Shown here piece by piece: positions 13,727 to 24,540 of a DNA stretch of 24,540 nt. A model generated the notes under the pieces. It searched no databases. It was not told the DNA's origin and saw only the letters and a list, made by a program, of their open reading frames with translations. A program made the position numbers and the translations under genes. The DNA comes from a virus: positions 1-24,540 of IMG/VR virus record IMGVR_UViG_3300048555_000012. One strand, written 5' to 3'. Position 1 is the first letter of the stretch; each line of letters begins with the position of its first letter.

Positions 13727-14410
13727 GTGGCACTTACATTATTATTTGGAGTTTACTTCTTACTAGCATTATATTCTTTTGTAGCATTATCTTGGTTACA
13801 ACTTCTATACACATACATACTTTTTTATTTTCTACTAGAGTTTGTAATGAGTTTGTTTATACACAGATGGGCTACACATAATCTATGGAATCCACCAGTA
13901 TGGTTTCAAAACATAATGAGTGTAGTATCTATGACTGCATTAATTGGAACACCAATATCTTATGCAGCATGGCATAGAAATCATCATAAACATTTTGATA
14001 CTAATAAAGACCCTCATAGTCCTAAGTACAAAAACTGGTTTAATATTATATTTAGAACACATGAACAAGAATCTAATATTAAACTTGTTACAGATAGGCT
14101 AAGAAATAAATGGCAATTATATTTAACTAAATATGAAACAACGTTGGTTTACGTGTTCAATGCTATTCTTTTCTTAGTCCTACCTATTGAATGGTTTTTA
14201 ATTTGGGTAACAGCAGTAGCTATGACTACATTTTGGGTAATGTCAGTTACAGGTATTATGTGTCATCTAGGTAAAGTAAAAGATGTACCTTATATGTACC
14301 CATTTGCATTTTCAGAATCATTTCATAAACAACATCACATAGAACCTAAATTAAAACATTGTAAGTTTGACCCTTGGGTTTGGATAATTAATAAACTGAG
14401 GTGGACATGA
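13727..14410 (+). CDS. Fatty acid desaturase 1 (membrane-bound, acyl-CoA delta-9 type fold)
   Basis: 227 residues, GTG start placed directly after the previous stop. Members of this family use a di-iron centre held by histidine boxes to introduce a double bond into fatty acyl chains in the membrane. All boxes are visible: HRWATH (46-51), HRNHHKH (83-89) and FHKQHH (199-204), plus an isolated His in MCHLG (180). Long hydrophobic stretches at about 3-44, 62-80 and 138-178 give the usual four-helix membrane layout. The protein is shorter than bacterial enzymes (typically 270-400 aa), with trimmed ends. Substrate and regiospecificity cannot be read from sequence. First gene of a three-desaturase run. 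Confidence 0.88.
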   Translation: MALTLLFGVYFLLALYSFVALSWLQLLYTYILFYFLLEFVMSLFIHRWATHNLWNPPVWFQNIMSVVSMTALIGTPISYAAWHRNHHKHFDTNKDPHSPKYKNWFNIIFRTHEQESNIKLVTDRLRNKWQLYLTKYETTLVYVFNAILFLVLPIEWFLIWVTAVAMTTFWVMSVTGIMCHLGKVKDVPYMYPFAFSESFHKQHHIEPKLKHCKFDPWVWIINKLRWT

Positions 14411-15153
14411 ACCATGCAAGAGGTGTGCAATTACTAGCATTAATAAATCATATAATAGCTATAGCTGGTTGTATTTATTATCCTCAATATATTATATATG
14501 GATTAATAGCTTGGGGTGTAGTAAATATATTTTCAACTAATATAGCTTTACACAGATTTATGTGTCACAGAAGTTTTGAAACAACACCTATAAAAGAAAA
14601 GATTTTAAAATATCTTACAGTAATATCAGCGTTTGGTAGTCCTTTATCTTGGGCTGCTATGCACAGATACCACCACAAACATTCTGGAAGTTTAGAAGAT
14701 AATGAGTCACCTAAAAATATAGGTTACATAAGAGCGTGGCTGACTTTATATGACCCAATTATTGTTCCTAAAACAATGGTAAAAGATATTTTAAAAGATA
14801 AAGATTATATGTTTATAACTAAACATTATTGGTTTTTATTGTTTAGTTGGATATTTGTTTTATATTTAATAGACCCTCTATTAGGAATATTTGCTTTTAG
14901 CTTTCCAGCAGCATGTATATATCAAGCAGCTGGTGCATTTGCAGTAATACCACATTGTAAATATTTTGGATATAAAGTTGTTGAATCAAGAAGAGACTGC
15001 ACTGCAGTTAATTCACCTTTAACAAGTTTAGTTAGTTGGGGTGAAGGATGGCATAACTACCATCACACAATATCAAAAGATTATAGACATGGACACAAGT
15101 GGTGGGAGTTAGACCCTTCTGCATGGATAATTGAAAGGTTGTTTTTAAAATGA
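14407..15153 (+). CDS. Fatty acid desaturase 2 (acyl-CoA delta-9 type)
   Basis: 248 residues from ATG 14407, chosen over GTG 14401 because it forms an ATGA overlap with the upstream stop and GAGGTGG (14398-14404) then serves as its ribosome binding site. Of the three it looks most like classical stearoyl-CoA delta-9 desaturases: HRFMCH (49-54), HRYHHKH (86-92) and GEGWHNYHH (212-220), preceded by NSPLTSLVSW, a region that is NSxxH in classical enzymes. An additional His lies at VIPHCKYFG. Hydrophobic blocks at about 7-48, 68-85 and 140-183 are the membrane segments. The likely role is to change host membrane acyl chains during infection. Confidence 0.9.
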   Translation: MNHARGVQLLALINHIIAIAGCIYYPQYIIYGLIAWGVVNIFSTNIALHRFMCHRSFETTPIKEKILKYLTVISAFGSPLSWAAMHRYHHKHSGSLEDNESPKNIGYIRAWLTLYDPIIVPKTMVKDILKDKDYMFITKHYWFLLFSWIFVLYLIDPLLGIFAFSFPAACIYQAAGAFAVIPHCKYFGYKVVESRRDCTAVNSPLTSLVSWGEGWHNYHHTISKDYRHGHKWWELDPSAWIIERLFLK

Positions 15154-15872
15154 GACAACATCATAAAATGTTAGCAATTCAATTTGTTATTCAAATAACA
15201 GCTATAATTGGTTTAATTTATTATCCATTTAGCTGGTCTTTGTTATTAGGTCTTATTGTTTTTCCTTTAATTTGTTTATGTTGTTATTATCATAGATACT
15301 GTTCTCACAATTCTTTTAAAACTTCTATAGAAATAGAAACAGTGGTTCATTATCTAAGCATTTTATTAATGCAAGGGTCAGCTATCTTGTGGGCAAGTAA
15401 CCACATTACACACCATAAACATTCAGATAAAGAAGGAGACCCACACCCAGCGTCTGAAGGATGGAAGACATGGTTTTGGTGGGATACATATAATAATTCT
15501 AAATTAAATGCTTTTAAAGTAAAAAAGATGTTAAAAAATCCGCTGTATAAATATACGCATAATAATTATTTTAAATTGTATTTTATTATGATGGCTACGT
15601 TAATTTTTATTAGCCCACAATTTACTGTTTATTTTGTTTTATTACCTGTTATGTATACATTTCATGCTACTAGTATTGTAAATGTATTAACACATAAATA
15701 TGGATACAGAAATTTTAATACACCTGATAAATCAACTAATTTACCATTACCTATGTTTGACTGTTTACATAACAATCACCATAAATATCCTAATAGGTAT
15801 AACACAAAAATTAAATGGTACGAATTTGATATACCCGCATTTTTAATTAAAAACGTTTTGGAGAGACCATGA
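15150..15872 (+). CDS. Fatty acid desaturase 3 (acyl-CoA delta-9 type fold)
   Basis: 240 residues, starting in an ATGA overlap with desaturase 2. Histidine boxes are HRYCSH (48-53), HITHHKH (85-91), a single His in VLTHKYG (182) and HNNHH (207-211). Hydrophobic stretches at about 7-46, 66-82 and 140-178 fit the membrane layout. Outside the boxes it shares little with the other two, so this is not a recent tandem duplication. The third box lacks the GEG that precedes it in desaturase 2. Its stop overlaps the start of the small membrane-protein gene before the holin, which ties the desaturases to the lysis block by translation coupling. Confidence 0.88.
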   Translation: MRQHHKMLAIQFVIQITAIIGLIYYPFSWSLLLGLIVFPLICLCCYYHRYCSHNSFKTSIEIETVVHYLSILLMQGSAILWASNHITHHKHSDKEGDPHPASEGWKTWFWWDTYNNSKLNAFKVKKMLKNPLYKYTHNNYFKLYFIMMATLIFISPQFTVYFVLLPVMYTFHATSIVNVLTHKYGYRNFNTPDKSTNLPLPMFDCLHNNHHKYPNRYNTKIKWYEFDIPAFLIKNVLERP

Positions 15873-16945: not shown

Positions 16946-18575
16946 GATAGATAACTTTAAGAACTTCTTGTATCTAGCTTGGAAACACCTCAATCTACCT
17001 GAGCCAACACCTATACAATACGATATAGCAGACTATCTACAATCTAAAGAGAAACGTATAGTAATAGAGGCTTTTAGGGGTGTAGGAAAGTCTTGGATTA
17101 CTTCTGCATTTGTATGTCACCAATTACTGCTGAACCCTCAGCGTAACATATTGGTAGTATCAGCTAGTAAAACGAGGGCTGATGACTTTAGTACATTTAC
17201 ACAGAGGCTTATTGCAGAAATGCCTTTGTTACAGCATTTACAACCTAAGGATAGCCAAAGACATTCTAAGGTATCCTTTGATGTTGCCCCAGCACAGGCT
17301 TCACACGCCCCCTCAGTGAAGTCTATGGGGATTACAGGTCAGCTTACGGGGTCTAGGGCTGACCTTATTATTGCTGATGACGTAGAATCTGCCAATAACT
17401 CACAGACTCAGCTTATGCGTGACCGCTTAAGTGAGACCGTAAAAGAGTTTGACGCTATTATAAAGCCTAAAGTAGGACGTGTTATCTTTCTAGGAACACC
17501 TCAAACAGAGATGTCATTGTATAATGACCTAGATGAACGTGGGTTCAAGACACGTATATGGTCAGCATTGATTCCTAACCAAGCACAAAAGGTAGGATAT
17601 GGGCATAAATTAGCTCCTACAATCGCTGATATGGACGGTAAAGAGGGAGACCCTACTGACCCTGATAGATTTAATGAAATCGACTTAATGGAGCGTTTAA
17701 GCTCATATGGTAGGTCAGGCTTTAATTTACAGTTTATGTTGGATACTAGTCTATCTGACGCTAATAAATACCCATTGAAGCTTAATGACCTTATTATAGC
17801 CTCAGGTTGCAGCACATGGACAGAAGCTCCAGCCAAAATACAATGGGCTTCAGGTATAGACCAAATCAAAGCGGTTGACTCTGAGTTACCTAATGTAGGA
17901 CTTAAGGGTGACTATTGGACTTCTTACCTATATATGTCCGAAGAATTTACAGAGTTTGAAGGCTCAGTTATGTCTATTGACCCCGCTGGTCGTGGGGCAG
18001 ATAAAACAGCCTATTGTGTACTTAAGATGTTACACGGTGTATTGTACCTGACTGCCATTGGTGGTCTAGATGGTGGATACTCTGATGACACACTTAAGAA
18101 GCTAGCCAATATAGCCAAGAAACATGACGTTAATGATATCGTCATTGAGAGTAACTTTGGTGATGGAATGGCAACACAGCTTCTAAAGCCTGTATTGGCT
18201 GACATACATCCTTGTAATGTAGAGGAAGTACGTCACAGTATACAGAAAGAGAAGCGTATAATAGACACATTAGAGCCTATTATGAATACCCATAGGTTAG
18301 TTATTGATGATAAGCTTATCAAAGATGACTTTCAGTTAGACCCTGACCACCAGTTATTTAGACAAATGACTAGGATAACAAGGGATAAAGGTGCACTAAG
18401 GCATGATGACCAAATAGACGCCTTAGCTATTGCAGCTAACTACTGGGTAGAAGTAATGGATAGAGACCAAACATTGTCTTATAACCAACATAAAGAAGAA
18501 ATGTTACAGGAAGATTTAGATAAATTCATGGAGACTGCTCTTGGCAGACCTATGGATGGAGATTCGTGGATATAG
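16938..18575 (+). CDS. terL: Terminase large subunit, DNA packaging ATPase/nuclease (T7 gp19-like)
   Basis: 545 residues (T7 gp19, 586). It cuts replicated concatemers and drives DNA into the prohead. ATPase domain: Walker A AFRGVGKSW (45-53) and Walker B LIIADDVE (143-150), with GRVIFLGTPQ (180-189) as the coupling motif. Nuclease domain, RNase H fold: SIDPAGRGADKTAY (346-359, Asp 348), IESNFGDGM (about 403-411) and DDQIDALAIAANYW near 496, supplying the acidic metal ligands. Start: ATG 16938 overlaps the end of the small subunit. It is the last large gene of the structural block; the genome ends should follow within the next few hundred bases. Confidence 0.96.
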   Translation: MNKIDNFKNFLYLAWKHLNLPEPTPIQYDIADYLQSKEKRIVIEAFRGVGKSWITSAFVCHQLLLNPQRNILVVSASKTRADDFSTFTQRLIAEMPLLQHLQPKDSQRHSKVSFDVAPAQASHAPSVKSMGITGQLTGSRADLIIADDVESANNSQTQLMRDRLSETVKEFDAIIKPKVGRVIFLGTPQTEMSLYNDLDERGFKTRIWSALIPNQAQKVGYGHKLAPTIADMDGKEGDPTDPDRFNEIDLMERLSSYGRSGFNLQFMLDTSLSDANKYPLKLNDLIIASGCSTWTEAPAKIQWASGIDQIKAVDSELPNVGLKGDYWTSYLYMSEEFTEFEGSVMSIDPAGRGADKTAYCVLKMLHGVLYLTAIGGLDGGYSDDTLKKLANIAKKHDVNDIVIESNFGDGMATQLLKPVLADIHPCNVEEVRHSIQKEKRIIDTLEPIMNTHRLVIDDKLIKDDFQLDPDHQLFRQMTRITRDKGALRHDDQIDALAIAANYWVEVMDRDQTLSYNQHKEEMLQEDLDKFMETALGRPMDGDSWI

Positions 18576-18676
18576 GTCGTCAAAGGTTTTTCTTCATTTT
18601 TCCTTTGGCGGCTCTTGTCCTACTTGTAGGAGTCCTTGTCTGTAAATATCTAGACAAAGGGTGGACAAAAACTTAA
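18566..18676 (+). CDS. Tiny single-TM protein at the T7 gp19.5 position
   Basis: A GTG-initiated ORF of 36 residues overlapping the terminase stop by 10 nt, with GGAG at 18558-18561 as ribosome binding site. The sequence is a basic head (MDIGRQR), one clear membrane helix (FFFIFPLAALVLLVGVLV, residues 8-25) and a charged tail (CKYLDKGWTKT). T7 has gp19.5, a 49-residue membrane protein, at exactly this position. Its TAA stop is also the TAA inside the promoter-like motif at 18673, as happens for two longer genes, which supports it being real. The function is unknown. Confidence 0.5.
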   Translation: MDIGRQRFFFIFPLAALVLLVGVLVCKYLDKGWTKT

Positions 18677-18693
18677 AGTACCCATATAAGATA
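18673..18693 (+). promoter_or_regulatory. Candidate phage RNA polymerase promoter, phiOR-like
   Basis: TTAAAGTACCCATATAAG plus ATA, identical over 21 nt to the copy at 23217 and sharing the overlap with an upstream TAA stop. T7 phiOR lies at the same place, after gene 19.5 near the right end, and primes replication there. No sigma-70 pattern explains the conservation. The role is inferred from repetition and position. Confidence 0.55.
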
Positions 18694-18750
18694 AAACCCC
18701 TGTGCACCCCTAGCTATATATAGACAAGCTATCCTTCCTTATTACTTATT
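18673..18750 (+). repeat. Copy A of a ~60-nt inverted repeat flanking the early region
   Basis: Begins with the promoter-like motif and continues AAACCCCTGT, CCCCTAGCT and ATATATA. The minus strand of 22161-22232 reads the same with a few substitutions and one or two small gaps, roughly 80% identical over about 60 nt, and both end in TCCTTCC/TCCTAC and TTACT-type tracts. The downstream AT-rich block contains the palindrome CTATATATAG. Such a promoter plus AT-rich unit could be a replication origin. Confidence 0.7.
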
Positions 18751-18754
18751 AATT

Positions 18755-18910
18755 ATGATACTAATAGAAGTACTACTCATAGTTATTACTGGAGTAATAC
18801 TCCTTAATAGTCACTATATTAGAACCTACTGGTTAAAGCCTGAGATATCCATAGGGGAGTTTATTCTGATAGCTGTGTTAACAGCTGTTGTTTTGTCGAA
18901 TATTTGGTAA
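18755..18910 (+). CDS. Small two-TM hydrophobic protein (possible)
   Basis: 51 residues from ATG 18755. Two hydrophobic stretches (about 2-17, ILIEVLLIVITGVILL, and about 34-51, EFILIAVLTAVVLSNIW) flank a short basic, aromatic loop (NSHYIRTYWLKPE). This looks like a genuine membrane hairpin rather than random reading, but no good ribosome binding site precedes the ATG (the upstream sequence is AT-rich). It lies in the segment that should contain the genome ends. An internal hairpin, AGCTGT/ACAGCT (18871-18886), is followed by a T-rich run. The function is unknown. Confidence 0.35.
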   Translation: MILIEVLLIVITGVILLNSHYIRTYWLKPEISIGEFILIAVLTAVVLSNIW

Positions 18911-19157
18911 AAAAATATGAGGGGATAACACGATAGCAAGAGGTGGAATTTCCCCCGTGCCGTCAGCCGTGTATAGTATAGTATCACACGCACACGGGCT
19001 TGCGGTCGCCTGTGGTCTATACATAAAGGGAAGCCTAAAGGGATACACGGCTGGACATTTTTATTTTGTTTGTCTTTGAGCTATGGTCTATTTTTATTTC
19101 TATAAGCTGATGAATCAGCCATATATCAAATTAATTCACTTTCATGTAATTCTTTTA
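18911..19157. other. Intergenic segment, probable genome-end (terminal repeat) region
   Basis: No convincing gene. It lies between the last late-region ORFs and the first host-type promoter, where T7-like genomes have their direct terminal repeat. In a circularised sequence the repeat collapses to one copy and its borders cannot be read from sequence. It holds the inverted-repeat structure at 18964-19053, T-rich tracts (19056-19100) and a short perfect hairpin GCTGAT/ATCAGC (about 19107-19120). Confidence 0.45.
18964..19068 (+). terminator. Structured element with U-rich tail, possible late terminator or small RNA
   Basis: CAGCCGTGTAT (18964-18974) and ATACACGGCTG (19043-19053) form a perfect 11-bp stem. 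Within the loop CACGGGC pairs with GCCTGTG (one G-U), and GTATAG can pair with CTATAC. The stem is followed by GGACATTTTTATTTTG. It is GC-rich against an AT-rich background. A terminator for late transcription is the simple reading; a stable RNA or packaging signal is possible. The loop is large for a standard intrinsic terminator. Confidence 0.4.
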
Positions 19158-19187
19158 TTGACATGGTGTATTCATTGGGTGTAGAGT
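19158..19187 (+). promoter_or_regulatory. Host sigma-70-type early promoter
   Basis: A perfect -35 box TTGACA (19158-19163), 18-nt spacer, and -10-like TAGAGT (19182-19187, four of six). It lies upstream of all early genes and directs transcription to the right, as expected for the host-RNA-polymerase promoters of a T7-like left end. Transcription would start near 19194-19196, just before the GCTAGG hairpin of the non-coding segment. Confidence 0.55.
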
Positions 19188-19194
19188 ATACACA

Positions 19195-19530
19195 TGCTAG
19201 GGGAACGGGAAATCCTAGCTAGTGACTCAGCACTATAAACATTCTGAGATGAGGCAAGGCGGAGCTGAGAGGTGTAAGCGTTGTACGGGGTTAGGAAGCG
19301 TAGCAAATGCTAAGAGCCGAAAGGTGGCTAGACTGACCAAAACCAGCCTAAGACCGTGCTAGTTATGAGATAGCAAGCGGTAAGAAAATTACTGAGGATA
19401 TAGACACCTTATCATTTTTATGAAATCCAGTAAGCGTGTGACAATACACTTCACAGGTGCTGACGCACTGGGTAACAGGTAACGTAATAATCAGCGGTGG
19501 ACGGACGCAACGGGTAAGGCTGGGGTTGTC
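19195..19530 (+). ncRNA. Candidate structured non-coding RNA with hammerhead-made 3' end
   Basis: About 335 nt with no plausible reading frame and 91 G/C in the first 180 nt (19201-19380), far above the surrounding genome. Pairings visible: GCTAGG/CCTAGC at the 5' end (about 19196-19219); ACCG+TGCTA / TAGCA+AG+CGGT (19353-19381, nine pairs with a two-base bulge); CCAGT/ACTGG (19427-19431 with 19467-19471); and a closing helix CCAGCCT/AGGCTGG (19343-19349 with 19517-19523) that ends seven bases before the hammerhead cleavage site. A weaker CGTTG/CAACG long-range pair may exist. Transcribed from the promoter at 19158, self-cleavage would release it from the early mRNA. It matches no RNA class I can recognise. 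Confidence 0.5.
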
Positions 19531-19575
19531 TCAGGCTGTGTAGCCTGACTGATGAGCTCAAAAGAGCGAAACAAC
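19525..19575 (+). ncRNA. Hammerhead ribozyme 1 (type III)
   Basis: Complete core. Stem III 5' strand GTTGT (19525-19529) and cleavage-site C (19530) give the triplet GUC. Stem I is TCAGGC/GCCTGA (19531-19536, 19543-19548) with loop TGTGTA. The CUGAUGA core lies at 19549-19555, stem II is GCTC-AAAA-GAGC (19556-19567), and GAAA (19568-19571) runs into the stem III 3' strand ACAAC (19571-19575). Stem III is open, so this is type III. Cleavage is predicted between 19530 and 19531, 68 nt before the first early gene; the ribozyme stays on the mRNA side. Confidence 0.88.
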
Positions 19576-19598
19576 ACAATAACAATGCGAGGAATATT

Positions 19599-19790
19599 AT
19601 GTTTACAAAAAAACACTACATAGCAGTAGCCGAAATGGTCGGTAGTCAATTGTCAGACAATCCACTGGGAAACACTGAGTTTATTATTAAAGACTGGTGT
19701 TTAATGTTTGAGAGAGACAACCCACTTTTTGACGCTGAAGTATTCACAAATTATGTCTATGACTCAATAGATAAAGCTAGGGGGTGCTAA
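19599..19790 (+). CDS. Small early protein, unrecognised
   Basis: 63 residues, first gene of the early region. The start ATG at 19599 has GCGAGGA in front and belongs to a leader motif reused before other early genes. The sequence (FTKKHYIAVAEMVGSQL, then DNPLFDAEVFTNYVYDS) follows a pattern I associate with short conserved proteins of marine phages, in which a helix 'KKHY.aiAe' is followed by a second helix after 'F..DNP.FD'. No function is known. It ends directly at the next start, so the two are co-translated. The first position after the host promoter suggests production right after infection. Confidence 0.75.
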   Translation: MFTKKHYIAVAEMVGSQLSDNPLGNTEFIIKDWCLMFERDNPLFDAEVFTNYVYDSIDKARGC

Positions 19791-19961
19791 ATGAATAGAC
19801 AAATACAACGTGCTATGAATAATGATGAGTCATACGCTCAAAAAGTAGAAGCTAACGAAGATTACGCAAAAGCTGAGCTATCAGCTAAGCGTATAACTAG
19901 GCTTCAATATCATATCATTATGCGAGATATACAGCGGGGAATACTACCTTATATCGACTAG
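19791..19961 (+). CDS. Small charged early protein, unrecognised
   Basis: 56 residues, from an ATG placed immediately after the previous stop (TAA|ATG). The composition is highly charged and helical, with many Glu, Lys, Arg and Gln (QRAMNNDESYAQKVEANEDYAKAELSAKRITRLQ) and an HIIMRDIQRGILPYID end. No own ribosome binding site stands out beyond AGGGGG (19781-19786), which lies at the end of the preceding gene. Its stop codon abuts hammerhead ribozyme 2: the last G of TAG is also the first base of ribozyme stem I. Function unknown; the tight junction argues that it is a real gene. Confidence 0.6.
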   Translation: MNRQIQRAMNNDESYAQKVEANEDYAKAELSAKRITRLQYHIIMRDIQRGILPYID

Positions 19962-20010
19962 TTACACTGATGAGACTTTATGAGTCGAAACGCCGTGAGG
20001 CGTCTGTAAC
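19961..20010 (+). ncRNA. Hammerhead ribozyme 2 (type I)
   Basis: Complete and compact. Stem I is GTTACA/TGTAAC (19961-19966, 20005-20010). CUGAUGA is at 19967-19973. Stem II is GACT-TTATG-AGTC (19974-19986). GAAA is at 19987-19990. Stem III is ACGCC/GGCGT closed by a GTGA tetraloop (GNRA type), and the cleavage triplet is GUC (20002-20004). Stem I is open, hence type I. Cut predicted between 20004 and 20005, leaving a 32-nt leader before the next gene. Confidence 0.93.
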
Positions 20011-20036
20011 ATTTAACAATTAATAAGAGGTAAAAA

Positions 20037-20399
20037 ATGCAAGTAATTAAATTATATCTACCAATGAAGGACAACGACGGGGATGACTTAATGCACATCC
20101 ATAATAATTTCATTGATAAAATAGCTTATCACAATAAAAGCCGAATTAATGACAATAAAGAGTCTGAGATAACTGGCTTTACTAGATATCAAGCTGAGGG
20201 TTTTTGGTTCGACAGCCATGAAATTTACAAGGATGATATCAAGATATATGAATTTCATGTATCGAATAAAAATGTTGGCATTGCATACACACTTCTACAG
20301 CGTCACGCCGTTACTTTATGCCGTAGGATGAAACAGGAATGTATCTACTTACAGCTTAACAATGAAACTGAGTTAGTGAGGAGTGTAGATAATGAGTGA
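20037..20399 (+). CDS. Early protein, unrecognised
   Basis: 120 residues, ATG preceded by AAGAGGTAAAAA (shared early leader). No family recognised. The N-terminus is an amphipathic strand followed by an Asp-rich patch (MKDNDGDDLMHIHNN), the middle has FTRYQAEGFWFDSHEIYKDDIKIYEFHVSN, and the end is a helix with CRRMKQECIYLQLNNETE. The mixed alpha/beta look and early position suit a host-takeover or anti-defence protein, but nothing in the sequence proves this. It overlaps the following membrane-protein gene by 8 nt. Its mRNA would start at the ribozyme 2 cleavage site if that ribozyme works. Confidence 0.7.
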   Translation: MQVIKLYLPMKDNDGDDLMHIHNNFIDKIAYHNKSRINDNKESEITGFTRYQAEGFWFDSHEIYKDDIKIYEFHVSNKNVGIAYTLLQRHAVTLCRRMKQECIYLQLNNETELVRSVDNE

Positions 20400-20694
20400 A
20401 GAGACAATTATAACAATAATGGGTCACGTCGATAACGTGTTGCTGGCTGTGGGTATCTATTACTCACTAGCTAGCATTGAGCACTACATGGACGCCTATT
20501 TTACAAACTACAAAGCGTCGCCTCAGGTGTTAGCGTGTGTCTCAGGATGTCTCGCTAACACGGTAAGTGACGGCGTAGGCTTCCTAGTTACTGGTAGCTG
20601 GGAATGGGCTTTGTGGGTTATGCTGGGGTGTCTATCAGGTATGCTAGTTATTCCAGTGCTAGAGTATATTAACAACAACGGGGATAAAAAATGA
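20392..20694 (+). CDS. Early membrane protein, unrecognised
   Basis: 100 residues with hydrophobic segments at about 14-28 (VLLAVGIYYSLASIE), 43-66 (ASPQVLACVSGCLANTVSDGVGFL) and 72-92 (EWALWVMLGCLSGMLVIPVLEY). It starts within the preceding gene and ends in ATGA with the next. Two Cys and several Gly lie in the membrane parts. Early membrane proteins of T7-like phages can block superinfection or disturb host membrane functions; that is a suggestion from context, not a match. The neighbouring genes are soluble and charged. Confidence 0.65.
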   Translation: MSEETIITIMGHVDNVLLAVGIYYSLASIEHYMDAYFTNYKASPQVLACVSGCLANTVSDGVGFLVTGSWEWALWVMLGCLSGMLVIPVLEYINNNGDKK

Positions 20695-21095
20695 AAAAGT
20701 ATTATAAATATGAAGAAGTAAAAGATTATTTTCATGACTTCATAACAGAACAAGGAGAAGATTGGGTATTAGAAAATAAAGAAGATATCCACCATCATGC
20801 TTTTAATACTGATTATTACATTATAGGCAGATATCAAGCTAGAAAATGGTTAGGAGATGAAACTTTAAATATAGTACAAATAATAAAAGATTATGAAAAT
20901 GATAATTTTGGAGAGGTAAGCACAGATTTTTCAGAGCCAGAACATGTTGTGAATATGTATGTTTACATCTTAGGAGAAATGATTGTTAGTAATATTGACT
21001 TAGAGCAATATTTTATCAATCAAGAAGTAAAAGAGATTGTAAGAAACGGTAAGACTAGAGCACTGGGTGAGTTATCTAATAAATTTAACAATTAA
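20691..21095 (+). CDS. Acidic early protein, unrecognised
   Basis: 134 residues, ATGA overlap with the membrane-protein gene. Strongly acidic (about 26 Asp/Glu against 14 Lys/Arg), with an aromatic-rich N-terminus (KKYYKYEEVKDYFHDFITEQGEDW), a HHHAFNTDYY segment and FGEVSTDFSEPEHVVNMYVYILG. It resembles no family I can name. It is more AT-rich than the genes on either side (15 G/C in 20701-20760), which may indicate a separate origin. T7 encodes an acidic DNA-mimic anti-restriction protein in its early region; the charge invites the comparison, but there is no sequence resemblance. The stop precedes the shared leader motif of the next gene. Confidence 0.65.
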   Translation: MKKYYKYEEVKDYFHDFITEQGEDWVLENKEDIHHHAFNTDYYIIGRYQARKWLGDETLNIVQIIKDYENDNFGEVSTDFSEPEHVVNMYVYILGEMIVSNIDLEQYFINQEVKEIVRNGKTRALGELSNKFNN

Positions 21096-21108
21096 CAGCG
21101 AGGTAAAA

Positions 21109-21618
21109 ATGTTAAGAGATAAAACTAAAAGACGTATTGGTATGACTGCTCATATAGGGTACTCATGGGGCTTAAGACAGACTAGCGGCTATGATGCTAT
21201 GGTTGACTTGTTATGGTCTAGAATACCACGTTGCGGGGAAGTGCCTGACGCTAAGGGCTCTAATAAAAAGCTAGAGCGTTTTAGAATGGCTAACAAGCTT
21301 GTCTATGACCTATTTAATAACGGTCTATGTAATAGGCGTGGTCAGTTTATGTCATTCTTTAAATCTAAACTTCCTATGCTAGGTAAAGTACCGCAGTATT
21401 CTAGGTTTAGACGTGCAGACTGGGAGAGACTATCTACTAGGCTAGGCTGGGTTATGCAAGACATAATACTGGACGCTTTAAAAGAGCAGTATCCTGAGCT
21501 TTATTACAGCTCATTCGACTCTAAGATTATGTCTAAAAGATGTAAGTCTATAGTGACGAGGGGTCAGCATAAGGTAAAAGATGTACCTGATGACGAGTTA
21601 GTTATGAGGTATCAATAA
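21109..21618 (+). CDS. Basic early protein, unrecognised
   Basis: 169 residues from ATG 21109. An in-frame ATG at 21067 lies inside the preceding gene without a ribosome binding site, whereas 21109 sits behind AATTAACAGCGAGGTAAA, the leader repeated before another early gene. The protein is basic and Trp/Arg-rich: MLRDKTKRRIGM, then RIPRCGEVPDAKGSNKKLER, GLCNRRGQFMSFFKSKLPM and FRRADWERLSTRLGWVMQDI. Basic, largely helical character suggests nucleic-acid binding, but no motif is recognised. It is followed at once by hammerhead ribozyme 3. Confidence 0.7.
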   Translation: MLRDKTKRRIGMTAHIGYSWGLRQTSGYDAMVDLLWSRIPRCGEVPDAKGSNKKLERFRMANKLVYDLFNNGLCNRRGQFMSFFKSKLPMLGKVPQYSRFRRADWERLSTRLGWVMQDIILDALKEQYPELYYSSFDSKIMSKRCKSIVTRGQHKVKDVPDDELVMRYQ

Positions 21619-21620
21619 TA

Positions 21621-21683
21621 GTACTACTGACGAGACTTGATTAGTCGAAAACCCTGACCAGTAATGTGTCGGGGTTCTAGTAC
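21621..21683 (+). ncRNA. Hammerhead ribozyme 3 (type I, UUC cleavage site)
   Basis: Stem I is GTACTA/TAGTAC (21621-21626, 21678-21683). Core CUGACGA, with C at the variable position, is at 21627-21633. Stem II is GACT-TGATT-AGTC (21634-21646). GAAA is at 21647-21650. Stem III has nine pairs, AACCCTGAC/GTCGGGGTT with one G-U, and loop CAGTAATGT. The cleavage triplet is UUC (21675-21677), allowed by the NUH rule but less usual than GUC. The cut leaves a 27-nt leader before the gene at 21705. Stem II matches that of ribozyme 2, suggesting common descent. Confidence 0.88.
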
Positions 21684-21704
21684 AAATTAACAGCGAGGTA
21701 AATT

Positions 21705-22157
21705 ATGGTAGACGTTACAAGTCGTAAGTATCTTGAATCGTATTTCACAGATGAGGTTGACTCGCCTGAGGATATACAAAACAAGATACTAATGGTCATG
21801 AAGGAAGACGGTATTATGGAGCGTAATGAAGAGGGTCAGATGACCGTATTCAAGAAGCGTCCACTACTGGCTTATCTTCGTATAGCCTTTCCTAATATCA
21901 AGCCTAGTGCTATCAATAGACAGCTTAATAATCTGTTTAAGGATGACGTGCTTAAGATATGGGACAAGTACAAAACTAAGCCGTATGTCATCAAGTCTAG
22001 ACAGTATGAAGCTAGGATGAGACGTGCGACCAGTAGAGTACAACGTAGTAAGACTGATATGCTGATTGAGATACTCATGGGAGATGACCCAAGTAAACGC
22101 ATGAGGTATATCACTGACTGTATAGCTAGTGGGGTTAGACCTGAGTTAGATATATAG
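21705..22157 (+). CDS. Basic early protein, unrecognised
   Basis: 150 residues, ATG behind AATTAACAGCGAGGTAAA, the same 18-nt leader as at 21109. The first half is acidic (SYFTDEVDSPEDIQNKILMVMKEDG), the second half basic and helical (YEARMRRATSRVQRSKTDMLIEIL). LLAYLRIAFPNIKPSAINRQLNNLFKDDVLKIW could be a small winged-helix or helix-turn-helix, which together with the basic tail would fit a DNA-binding regulator; this is only a structural guess. Ribozyme 3 lies between it and the previous gene. A 115-nt gap with terminator- and promoter-like signals follows. Confidence 0.7.
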   Translation: MVDVTSRKYLESYFTDEVDSPEDIQNKILMVMKEDGIMERNEEGQMTVFKKRPLLAYLRIAFPNIKPSAINRQLNNLFKDDVLKIWDKYKTKPYVIKSRQYEARMRRATSRVQRSKTDMLIEILMGDDPSKRMRYITDCIASGVRPELDI

Positions 22158-22160
22158 GTA

Positions 22161-22232
22161 GTAAGTAGGAAGTAATATAGCTGTATATATAGCTAGGGGA
22201 GACAGGGGTTTACACTAATATGGGTACTTTAA
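22161..22232 (-). repeat. Copy B of the inverted repeat, with promoter-like motif on the minus strand
   Basis: Read on the minus strand it begins TTAAAGTACCCATATTAG at 22232 and continues AAACCCCTGTC, CCCCTAGCT and ATATATA. It aligns with 18673-18750 for about 60 nt, well beyond the 21-nt core. If the core is a promoter, this copy points left, against the early genes. Alternatively the pair are origin or recombination sites. Most of it lies in the gap between two early genes. Confidence 0.65.
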
Positions 22233-22250
22233 ACACCTGTTTCCTTACTT
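22203..22250 (+). terminator. Possible rho-independent terminator after the first early block
   Basis: CAGGGGTTTA (22203-22212) pairs with TAAACACCTG (22230-22239), nine of ten positions, with a 17-nt loop and a following TTTCCTTACTT tract. It overlaps the minus-strand promoter-like copy. T7 has an early terminator after the first block; the position here, before the gene at 22273, is comparable only loosely. The U-tract is interrupted. Confidence 0.35.
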
Positions 22251-22272
22251 AACAATAACATAGCGAGGTATT

Positions 22273-22755
22273 ATGAATATATTTATATTAGATAGACATC
22301 CACGTACCTGTGCTCAATATCATTGTGACAAACATGTCGTCAAGATGATACTTGAGACAGCTCAGATGATGTGCACCGTACTCAATGAGTTAGGATACGA
22401 GACGCCTTACAAGTCTACTCATCCTAAACATCCATGTACGCTGTGGCTCAAGGAGTCTAGGAACAATTACTTATGGACTAGACAACTAGCTAAGGGACTC
22501 AATGCTGAGTACAAGTTACGCTATAACAAAACTGATAATCATAAGTCATGGGACGTTATAAAAAGCTTACCAGCATTGCCTAGAGAGTTACCACTTAAGG
22601 ACTTAACTGACTTTCCACAAGCTATGCCTGACCAGTATAAACATACTGACCCTGTCGTAGCATATCGTACGTACTACAGACAGGACAAGCGGGACTTTGC
22701 TACGTGGAAACTAGCAACACCTATATGGTGGAATGACAACACATACACATACTAA
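22273..22755 (+). CDS. Pyrimidine-dimer DNA glycosylase-like protein
   Basis: 160 residues, ATG behind the shared early leader (AACATAGCGAGGTATT). The start MNIFILDRHPRTCAQYHCDK followed by HVVKMILETAQMMCTVL matches a family of phage proteins often described as pyrimidine-dimer glycosylase/endonuclease V-like; the pattern 'CA.yHcDKHvvKMilE' is its hallmark. Further family-like stretches are HPKHPCTLWLKESRNNYLWTRQL and DPVVAYRTYYRQDKRDFATWK, and the protein ends PIWWNDNTYTY. If the assignment holds, it would repair UV damage in phage DNA, which makes sense in surface seawater. The activity of this family branch is not something I can confirm. Confidence 0.6.
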   Translation: MNIFILDRHPRTCAQYHCDKHVVKMILETAQMMCTVLNELGYETPYKSTHPKHPCTLWLKESRNNYLWTRQLAKGLNAEYKLRYNKTDNHKSWDVIKSLPALPRELPLKDLTDFPQAMPDQYKHTDPVVAYRTYYRQDKRDFATWKLATPIWWNDNTYTY

Positions 22756-22770
22756 CAAAGGAGAATAACT

Positions 22771-22959
22771 ATGAAGCCAACAATAGAAACTGATACGGAC
22801 TTAGTGTTTGATGTTTGCGACCAAGTCGTGAACTATCCACAAAAGATATATGACTTGTTTGAGGATTATATGTACATGTATAGCATAGGCAGTGAGCATT
22901 ACTTTAAACACAGAGACACAAGAGAATATATATGTATCGGAGCAACATTATACCAATAG
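22771..22959 (+). CDS. Small acidic early protein, unrecognised
   Basis: 62 residues with a strong AAAGGAG ribosome binding site. Acidic and Tyr-rich (VFDVCDQVVNYPQKIYDLFEDYMYMYSIGSEHYFKHRDTREYICIGATLYQ). No family recognised. It lies in a run of three genes (22273, 22771, 22969) with short gaps and classical ribosome binding sites, leading into the RNA polymerase, so it is probably co-transcribed with them. Confidence 0.6.
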   Translation: MKPTIETDTDLVFDVCDQVVNYPQKIYDLFEDYMYMYSIGSEHYFKHRDTREYICIGATLYQ

Positions 22960-22968
22960 GAGAAAACT

Positions 22969-23220
22969 ATGAGTGAACTAACAATAGAACAATTAAACAG
23001 TGACACACCAGCTAATAAATCACCTGTCGGGTGGAATCCAGTAAGAGAGAGACACTACAAACAATTCTTAAGGACTCTTGACTGGCATGACTTCGGTAAG
23101 ATTGACGCAGTACGCCGTCACATGTATGAGACTTGGATAACTAAGGGTGTACATCCTAATGACCTAAAGAAACCATATCATGTGGGTAAGAATGAAAAGG
23201 ACTATGGGTCTGAGTTTTAA
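22969..23220 (+). CDS. Small protein upstream of RNA polymerase, unrecognised
   Basis: 83 residues, ribosome binding site AGGAGA at 22958-22963. Charged and Trp/His-containing (SPVGWNPVRERHYKQFLRTLDWHDFGKIDAVRRHMYETWI, then KGVHPNDLKKPYHVGKNEKDYGSEF). I recognise no domain. Its TAA stop forms part of the promoter-like motif at 23217, just ahead of the RNA polymerase gene. In T7 the equivalent slot before gene 1 holds gene 0.7, but there is no resemblance to that kinase. Confidence 0.65.
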   Translation: MSELTIEQLNSDTPANKSPVGWNPVRERHYKQFLRTLDWHDFGKIDAVRRHMYETWITKGVHPNDLKKPYHVGKNEKDYGSEF

Positions 23221-23237
23221 AGTACCCATATAAGATA
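23217..23237 (+). promoter_or_regulatory. Candidate phage RNA polymerase promoter before the polymerase gene
   Basis: Exact 21-nt copy of the motif at 18673, ending 29 nt before the polymerase ATG and overlapping the upstream stop codon. Autoregulation of the polymerase by its own promoter would follow. Only the 21-nt core is shared here; the CCCCTGT/CCCCTAGCT extension of the other copies is missing, which points to the core as the functional unit. Confidence 0.55.
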
Positions 23238-23266
23238 CCAATACACAATTAACCTAAGGAGTATAC

Positions 23267-24540
23267 ATGGTAGAGATATTTAAGAATATAAAAGAGTACG
23301 CTGATGAGTTAGACCATGAAGCGGAGATGATTAAGCTGGGTAAACAGCGAGTCAATAAGCGTAGGGTCTCTCATGTCCAGCGTGAAGAGGAGTCAGTGAC
23401 CAGCTATGGTAAAGTCATGGTGGCTAATACCATACGACCACTGGCACAAGCCATACAGGACTATCTTGAATCTAATGCTGACGCTAAGGGTCAGCCTGAG
23501 AAAGCTTTTATTAAGCTACGAGAGATTGAGCCTGAGGTGTCAGCCATGATATGTGCTAAGCATGTCATCAATACTATCACACAGCATAAGCCATTGACGG
23601 CTACGAGTATTGCGTTGGGTGGTAAGATTGAGACTGAGACATCTCTTCGTAACTTCAAGAACCTAAACCCTGAACTGTTTGACGCAGTCAAGAATGACTT
23701 GGACAAGCGTTCATGGAACTACGCATACAAGAGACGTAAGCTTAAGGAATCAGCTAAGCGTGACAGCGTGGCTATGTGGGAAGAGTGGACTACGGAAGAG
23801 AAGCTACACACGGGCATGAGACTTATCGAGTTTATGCAGTCAGCTACAGGTATGATTGAGTTTGGACTTGAGGTTATCAATCGTAAGCGTACTAAGATAA
23901 TCAAGCAGACAGCTAAGACTAGAGAGTGGATACAAAATAGAAATAACTTTAATGAGCTATTGAATCCTGAGTACCTACCAACTGTCATGCCGCCTAGAAA
24001 CTGGGAGACAGTCACAGGTGGTGGATACTGGACGAAGGAGTTACCTGAACTAGACTTAGTCAAACAAAAGAATAAGTTATTCAAGCGTGAGCTAGAGAAC
24101 TTTGATATGCCTGAAGTATACAACGCAGTTAACCGTATGCAGTCGACTGGCTTCAGGGTTAACAAGTTTGTACTAGATGTAATGAAGCACGCTTGGGACA
24201 ATGGTATTGCTATGGGTGGTATGCCACCAATTAAGAACATGGAGATACCTAACAAGCCACATGACATTGACACTAATGAGGAAGCACGTAAGGAGTGGAA
24301 GAAACAAGCTGTGATTGCTCACACTGAGAACTCTAGGATGTTTAGTAAGAGATTACTATACGCTAAGATACTGTGGGAAGCTGATAAGTTTAAAGATTAT
24401 GACAACATATACTTTCCCTTACAGTTAGACTTCAGAGGTAGAGCCTATTGTGTCCCAGCATTTCTAAACTATCAGGGAATCAATGGTGCTAAGGCACTGT
24501 TAGATTTCTCACATGGTAAAGAGATAACTGAAGACAACAG
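23267..24540 (+). CDS. T7-like single-subunit RNA polymerase, N-terminal part
   Basis: The first 424 codons of an ORF running off the right edge (T7 RNA polymerase has 883 residues), ATG preceded by TAAGGA. Features: KVMVANTIRPLAQAIQDYL and SAMICAKHVINTI in the N-terminal promoter-binding domain, LEVINRKRTKIIKQ, then PRNWETVTGGGYW, and the family hallmark QLDFRGRAYCVPAFLNYQG with AKALLDFSHGK at the start of the palm/polymerase domain. The catalytic aspartates lie beyond the window. The enzyme should transcribe the middle and late genes from phage-specific promoters. It is the best evidence that the phage belongs to the autographivirus group. Confidence 0.96.
   Translation, partial: MVEIFKNIKEYADELDHEAEMIKLGKQRVNKRRVSHVQREEESVTSYGKVMVANTIRPLAQAIQDYLESNADAKGQPEKAFIKLREIEPEVSAMICAKHVINTITQHKPLTATSIALGGKIETETSLRNFKNLNPELFDAVKNDLDKRSWNYAYKRRKLKESAKRDSVAMWEEWTTEEKLHTGMRLIEFMQSATGMIEFGLEVINRKRTKIIKQTAKTREWIQNRNNFNELLNPEYLPTVMPPRNWETVTGGGYWTKELPELDLVKQKNKLFKRELENFDMPEVYNAVNRMQSTGFRVNKFVLDVMKHAWDNGIAMGGMPPIKNMEIPNKPHDIDTNEEARKEWKKQAVIAHTENSRMFSKRLLYAKILWEADKFKDYDNIYFPLQLDFRGRAYCVPAFLNYQGINGAKALLDFSHGKEITEDN

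Follow-up and report, generated by a model that had tools for sequence, protein, structure and literature searches.

The early transcript of a marine T7-like phage seems to be processed by self-cleaving RNA. We analyzed a 24,540-nucleotide (nt) stretch of viral DNA (positions 1 to 24,540 of IMG/VR record IMGVR_UViG_3300048555_000012; hereafter the window), in which a first-pass annotation, made from the letters alone, had described three full hammerhead ribozymes between early genes and had proposed that they replace RNase III processing. The three elements (HHR1 to HHR3) are complete hammerhead ribozymes for which self-cleavage is predicted. Our preferred reading, to which we give a probability of about 0.8 on sequence evidence, is that, in this T7-like phage related to Pelagivirus, they self-cleave and process the early transcript. 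The elements are as follows.

19525..19575, plus strand: HHR1, type III hammerhead; core CTGATGA at 19549, predicted cut after C19530, 68 nt to the ATG at 19599.
19961..20010, plus strand: HHR2, type I hammerhead; core at 19967, predicted cut after C20004, 32 nt to the ATG at 20037.
21621..21683, plus strand: HHR3, type I hammerhead; core CTGACGA at 21627, predicted cut after C21677, 27 nt to the ATG at 21705.

Each of them contains the CUGANGA ... GAAA core together with an NUH triplet (H is not G) at the cleavage site. A descriptor scan demanding the core, three stems and UH gave three matches on the plus strand of the window and none on the minus strand. The same scan found nothing in 200 dinucleotide shuffles searched on both strands, nor in 893 kb of SAR11 DNA; these controls, along with the spacing to start codons compared with random positions (see below), rule out a chance origin. 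The scan and the covariation described below bear out the first-pass annotation as regards the coordinates, the coding strand, the assignment of one element to type III and two to type I, and the leaders of 68, 32 and 27 nt before the genes at 19599, 20037 and 21705. Its placement of the ribozymes at gene junctions held for two of them: the first base of HHR2 is the last base of the preceding TAG stop codon, and HHR3 begins 2 nt past the preceding TAA. HHR1 instead separates a noncoding leader from the first early gene.

To follow the stems across relatives, we selected IMG/VR sites by the hammerhead 5′ half alone, which gave 84 unique sites. An exact stem I complement followed the UH in 78 of them and tracked the varied base of the 5′ half (32 GTTACA/TGTAAC, 32 GTTATA/TATAAC, and 14 GTACTA/TAGTAC pairings). 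Stems II and III had played no part in site selection, and their second base pair was formed at 77 and 78 of these 78 sites, respectively, with all four Watson-Crick types occurring; as a control, partners shifted by one base pair matched in just 16 to 32 of the 78. Position 17 was C in 69 sites, A in 9, and G in none. These 78 sites include kin sequences and do not represent 78 independent events. On this comparative evidence, all hammerhead stems are maintained by compensatory change among relatives.

The placement of the elements relative to genes was tallied for 119 unique hammerheads from IMG/VR records, a set that includes related sequences and thus does not amount to 119 independent events. 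For type I, the median distance from cut to ATG was 25 nt (interquartile range, 23 to 29) and the median gap from stop codon to ribozyme was 2.5 nt, with frequent overlap of the stop codon; for type III, the median distance from cut to ATG was 68 nt (67 to 70). An ATG lay 20 to 35 nt downstream in 84 of the 104 type I sites, compared with 9% of random same-strand positions.

Besides the kinship within this tally, several observations speak against our reading. Some early junctions, such as the one before the gene at 21109, have no ribozyme. The minimum free energy folds of HHR1 and HHR3 differ from the full hammerhead fold, which was recovered by the minimum free energy fold of HHR2 and by the centroid of HHR3. 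Moreover, an Rfam scan of the whole window at the gathering threshold returned no matches, and a permissive scan was needed to see the hammerheads. HHR1 matched RF00008 at 40.3 bits (E = 1.6e-6; gathering score, 48.5). HHR3 gave a full-length match to RF03152 (RAGATH-1-hammerhead) of 38.9 bits (E = 3.8e-4) and HHR2 matched it weakly at 22.5 bits (E = 1.5), both short of the gathering score of 56.3, and matches to RF00163 (23.7 and 22.6 bits) did not reach 34. The Rfam models put forward in the first-pass annotation thus do find the elements, all below gathering scores, which are the curators' score thresholds and no defining structural feature of hammerheads.

As to its origin, the window is, judging from its genes, a fragment of a marine T7-like phage closest to the Pelagivirus phages of SAR11. 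Its large terminase shares 84% identity with the enzyme of Pelagivirus HTVC109P, a T7-like SAR11 phage, and it encodes a single-subunit RNA polymerase preceded by small early genes, as expected for a Pelagivirus-related member of the Autographiviridae. The order of terminase, small early genes and polymerase is the same in the window and in cultured phages, and the ribozymes sit among the early genes. We infer that SAR11 is the host. A nucleotide-level search of phage records found no DNA similar to the window.

The best-supported function for the hammerheads is the cutting of the early transcript into separate mRNAs, to which stop and start codon spacing, covariation and conserved positions all point. 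We infer that cleavage takes place in cells and that it serves to yield distinct, stable mRNAs, the role that RNase III sites have in T7. Transcription would probably start at a sigma70-type promoter at 19158-19187. The HHR1 cut would free a structured leader RNA from the first mRNA, which would then begin with the stem I hairpin, while HHR2 and HHR3 would cut just past a gene end and about 30 nt ahead of the next gene. After a type I cut, the upstream mRNA would retain a 3′-terminal stem III hairpin plus UC; the mRNA downstream of the cut would begin with six stem I bases in a short 5′-OH leader carrying a ribosome-binding site. Terminal hairpins and a 5′-OH generally slow RNA decay, which would fit with separate stable early mRNAs.

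The same elements are present in known relatives. The descriptor scan found early-region hammerheads in 13 of 15 Pelagivirus records (HTVC109P, HTVC168P, HTVC031P, HTVC142P, Eistla, HTVC019P, HTVC201P, HTVC022P, HTVC021P, HTVC304P, HTVC131P, Jormungand, and the fosmid phage S35C6) and none in Pelagivirus HTVC121P and HTVC105P, nor in T7, LUZ100, CRP-361, HTVC119P, HTVC011P, HTVC025P, and Bylgja. Four records start at or within the first gene, and their end was joined to their start for reading that junction. Every hammerhead of the window and of the cultured phages is on the coding strand and within the early region. Tight spacing has exceptions: in HTVC201P and Jormungand, the preceding gene is annotated as extending at its 3′ end into the ribozyme, and the last type I ribozyme of HTVC019P-like phages lies about 380 to 440 nt ahead of the MarR gene. 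This stretch before the MarR gene is unannotated (L110:3002-3396, L232:2316-2755, and L233:2353-2731; L numbers designate individual loci) and is a candidate for another noncoding RNA. In HTVC109P (L106, MH598805), the annotated first gene starts at base 1 of the record, at an ATG within the hammerhead (ATGAGCGAAAC); its true start is likely the ATG at base 34.

Some of these phages have long hairpins where others have ribozymes. HTVC168P, HTVC019P, Eistla, HTVC201P, and HTVC304P share a leader RNA (GCCACACACGG ... GGTGTGTGG) that is distinct from that of the window and located at the same first junction. Behind this second leader comes a type III hammerhead in HTVC168P and HTVC019P, a 26-bp imperfect hairpin in HTVC201P and HTVC304P (shuffle maxima, 23 and 20), and a 22-bp hairpin in Eistla, a length equaled in 2 of 100 shuffles. 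The 26-bp hairpin also precedes the first early gene of HTVC022P and HTVC131P. The record of HTVC022P (MH598798) has a hairpin at 512-575 and a type I hammerhead with a predicted cut near base 2354. In Eistla (L109:8150-8305), the stem III strands (TTTGTTTGTT/AACAAACAAA) persist around the long hairpin, which sits where the ribozyme core would otherwise be and looks like the replacement of a former hammerhead. Hairpins of 20 to 27 bp occur at other junctions of HTVC019P, HTVC022P, HTVC304P, HTVC131P, HTVC021P, HTVC105P, Jormungand, and S35C6, the longest being 27 bp compared with a shuffle maximum of 20. A recurring family of them (AGACTTAAAGCC...GGCTTTGAGACTTTTT), found at early junctions of HTVC019P, HTVC022P, HTVC304P, HTVC131P, HTVC021P, HTVC105P, and S35C6, may be either a processing site or a terminator. 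Ribozymes and hairpins also occupy different early junctions within single genomes. We conclude that Pelagivirus-type phages use both at different junctions and, in one case, at the same junction.

T7 relies on host RNase III for separating its early mRNAs, and a T7-type site is a long imperfect hairpin at a junction. The three window junctions have hammerheads in that place. We held back from calling the hairpins of relatives outright RNase III sites: several end in U runs and are possible terminators (the 26-bp hairpin does not end in one), and the hairpin measure, which was unremarkable at most T7 junctions, is not enough on its own to identify RNase III sites. These hairpins are putative RNase III sites. 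The notion that SAR11 lacks RNase III, making a ribozyme necessary, was rejected because a clear RNase III gene was found in 5 of 9 SAR11 genomes, which are incomplete; with hosts that encode the enzyme, the ribozyme would be an alternative and not a necessity. The proposal that the ribozymes do the work of RNase III independently of any host enzyme therefore survives in altered form. Processing of mRNA is supported, as is the exchange of a type III ribozyme for a long hairpin in relatives; a need for independence from the host is not. A wider picture, which we put forward tentatively, is that of a modular early operon with interchangeable end-makers (hammerhead or RNase III-type hairpin), the first of which would release an undescribed, early-acting structured leader RNA.

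The features upstream of HHR1 are listed below.

19158..19187, plus strand: sigma70-type promoter TTGACA-18-TAGAGT, one of the two top-scoring (10/12) sites in 18500-23300.
19194..19530, plus strand: structured noncoding leader RNA of about 337 nt, whose 3′ end would come from the HHR1 cut.
19500..19516, plus strand: invariant leader motif GACGGACGCAACGGGTA, with a type III hammerhead directly 3′ of it in 9 of 9 IMG/VR contigs carrying the motif.

The promoter is probably the start of the early transcript, with a presumed start near 19194. Matches to the promoter consensus are no more frequent in the region than expected by chance, and the support comes from conservation, TTGACA-type sites being present at the equivalent place in L033, L034, L044, L082, and L100. 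Five distinct homologs of the leader could be aligned and favor a common fold, with double changes at 18 of 79 consensus pairs, the helix CCAGCC/GGCTGG among them; at -0.76, however, the covariation term is weak, and the sequences are few. The single-sequence fold has a z score of -1.7. No convincing Rfam match was found for the window leader or for those of Eistla and HTVC019P.

These properties lend some weight to another explanation, possible although doubtful in our view, in which HHR1 serves to free a stable structured RNA that acts alone (host RNA polymerase or termination being conceivable targets), with the type I ribozymes in a secondary role. Such a role would account for the constant association of structured leader and type III hammerhead behind a conserved promoter, as well as for the second leader at the same junction in five phages. 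It fits poorly with the 100 of 119 hammerheads that are type I elements between genes, without a leader RNA, and with the relatives in which a hairpin substitutes for the type III ribozyme while the leader is retained; the weak covariation term also counts against it. Processing of the early transcript remains our preferred reading, and the early genes that it concerns are as follows.

19599..19790, plus strand: first early gene, 63 amino acids (aa), unknown function; no PHROG match, homolog in L013.
19791..19961, plus strand: early gene, 56 aa; 12 related loci have a homolog.
20037..20399, plus strand: early gene, 120 aa, phrog_3543, unknown function; homologs in related loci.
20392..20694, plus strand: early gene, 100 aa; homologs in related loci.
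20691..21095, plus strand: early gene, 134 aa, phrog_10208, unknown function.
21109..21618, plus strand: early gene, 169 aa.
21705..22157, plus strand: early gene, 150 aa, unknown function; found in 20 related loci.

A homolog of the 19791 gene is followed by a hammerhead in 12 of 12 loci. This hammerhead is type I in nine of them and type III in three (L043, L069, and L089), indicating that the ribozyme type can switch at one site. Adjoining the 19791 homolog, L006, L008, L013, and L020 have an additional gene accompanied by a ribozyme of its own, and in L013 a ribozyme stands at 1768, the point where the window continues ribozyme-free. The repeating unit therefore looks like leader, gene or genes, and ribozyme. 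The AATTAACAGCGAGGTAAA leader (repeat D15) precedes the genes at 21109 and 21705 alike, and the ribozyme is absent before the former. This mobility could mean that hammerheads merely spread with small gene cassettes through recombination at similar leaders, their cleavage being of minor importance to the phage. The gain and loss of gene-plus-ribozyme units among relatives, a leader-like stretch in L006 that runs straight into a ribozyme with no intervening gene, and the absence of ribozymes before 21109 and from two Pelagivirus records would all suit such hitch-hiking. We nevertheless consider it unlikely given the compensatory change that preserves every stem, the tight spacing to stop and start codons, the uniform coding-strand, early-region location in the window and cultured phages, and the substitution of long hairpins at a homologous site. 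Equally improbable is control of specific early mRNAs, which a ribozyme might destabilize or switch rather than simply mature, for instance through a ribosome terminating at the abutting or overlapping upstream stop codon and covering stem I (median gap, 2.5 nt), since there is no visible ligand-binding domain, stem III and the loops vary freely, and a site 5′ of the ribosome-binding site suits plain maturation.

The idea that hammerheads are a speciality of T7-like phages was rejected, many large hammerhead-bearing contigs being without a T7-like RNA polymerase match: PF00940 was matched by just 9 of 44 hammerhead-bearing viral records, with several unmatched records of 40 to 65 kb, although records may be fragments. 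One locus, L061, has ten type I hammerheads in 6.3 kb (L061:2298-8601), and PHROG matches are nearly absent among its genes.

Downstream of the early genes, the following were identified.

22273-22755: gene with a match to pyrimidine dimer DNA glycosylase (PF03013), located past the early genes and ahead of the RNA polymerase gene.
23267..24540, plus strand: 5′ portion of the gene for a T7-like, single-subunit RNA polymerase (PF14700 RPOL_N, E = 5.5e-12), truncated by the window end.

An exact 21-nt repeat, TTAAAGTACCCATATAAGATA, lies on the plus strand 3′ of the terminase gene (18673-18693) and 5′ of the RNA polymerase gene (23217-23237), with a near copy in the opposite orientation at 22212-22232 (minus strand) and a similar stretch close to the end of HTVC168P; these repeats are possible promoters for the phage RNA polymerase. 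Adjoining copies of TTAAAGTACCCATATAAGATA is a perfect 16-nt inverted repeat, CCCCTAGCTATATATA, at 18707-18722 and 22184-22199; its copies are about 3.5 kb apart, and the early region is thus bounded by inverted repeats. In the late region (13727-15869), three fatty acid desaturase-related genes (PF00487) stand in a row, the first slightly under the Pfam cutoff.

If ribozymes indeed serve at some junctions and long hairpins at others, these phages offer a natural replacement series, open to testing in SAR11 phages that are in culture (HTVC022P, for example), and hammerheads of bacterial viruses, whose function is so far largely unproven, would gain a clear biological role. The findings also point to leader RNAs absent from Rfam in an abundant marine phage group. 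A literature search that covered few subscription journals returned nothing to the point linking hammerheads with Autographiviridae, HTVC019P or marine-phage RNase III.

Among known systems, the T7 RNase III sites resemble the window hammerheads in their intergenic cuts upstream of the RNA polymerase gene and in the 3′ hairpin kept on mRNAs, whereas hammerhead self-cleavage needs no enzyme and yields a 2′,3′-cyclic phosphate and a 5′-OH. The type I architecture is shared with the RAGATH-1-hammerhead (RF03152). In haloviruses HF1 and HF2, the mapped 5′ end of an early mRNA is no more than 3 nt away from the point where a hammerhead cuts (PMC3088659); there too the hammerhead is just 5′ of the first gene of a lytic virus's early polycistronic mRNA, although that of the archaeal virus has a variant core, whereas the window has canonical cores in several copies. 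Clustered hammerheads are known from prophages of Agrobacterium tumefaciens, Azorhizobium caulinodans, and Clostridium scindens (Perreault et al. 2011, PMC3088659). It was proposed in 2011, and partly tested, that such clusters process long phage transcripts into shorter mRNAs; in E. coli, the triple phage hammerhead from A. tumefaciens does undergo cleavage (PMC3088659). As in those clusters, multiple hammerheads border individual genes or short runs of genes along a single phage transcript (PMC3088659). Unlike them, the window hammerheads belong to the early operon of a SAR11-phage-related T7-like phage, which opens with a promoter, a leader RNA and a type III ribozyme, and in relatives of this phage a hammerhead is exchanged with a long hairpin. 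Clustered phage hammerheads and the idea of processing were thus already known, whereas the early T7-like setting looks new, as does the exchange with hairpins.

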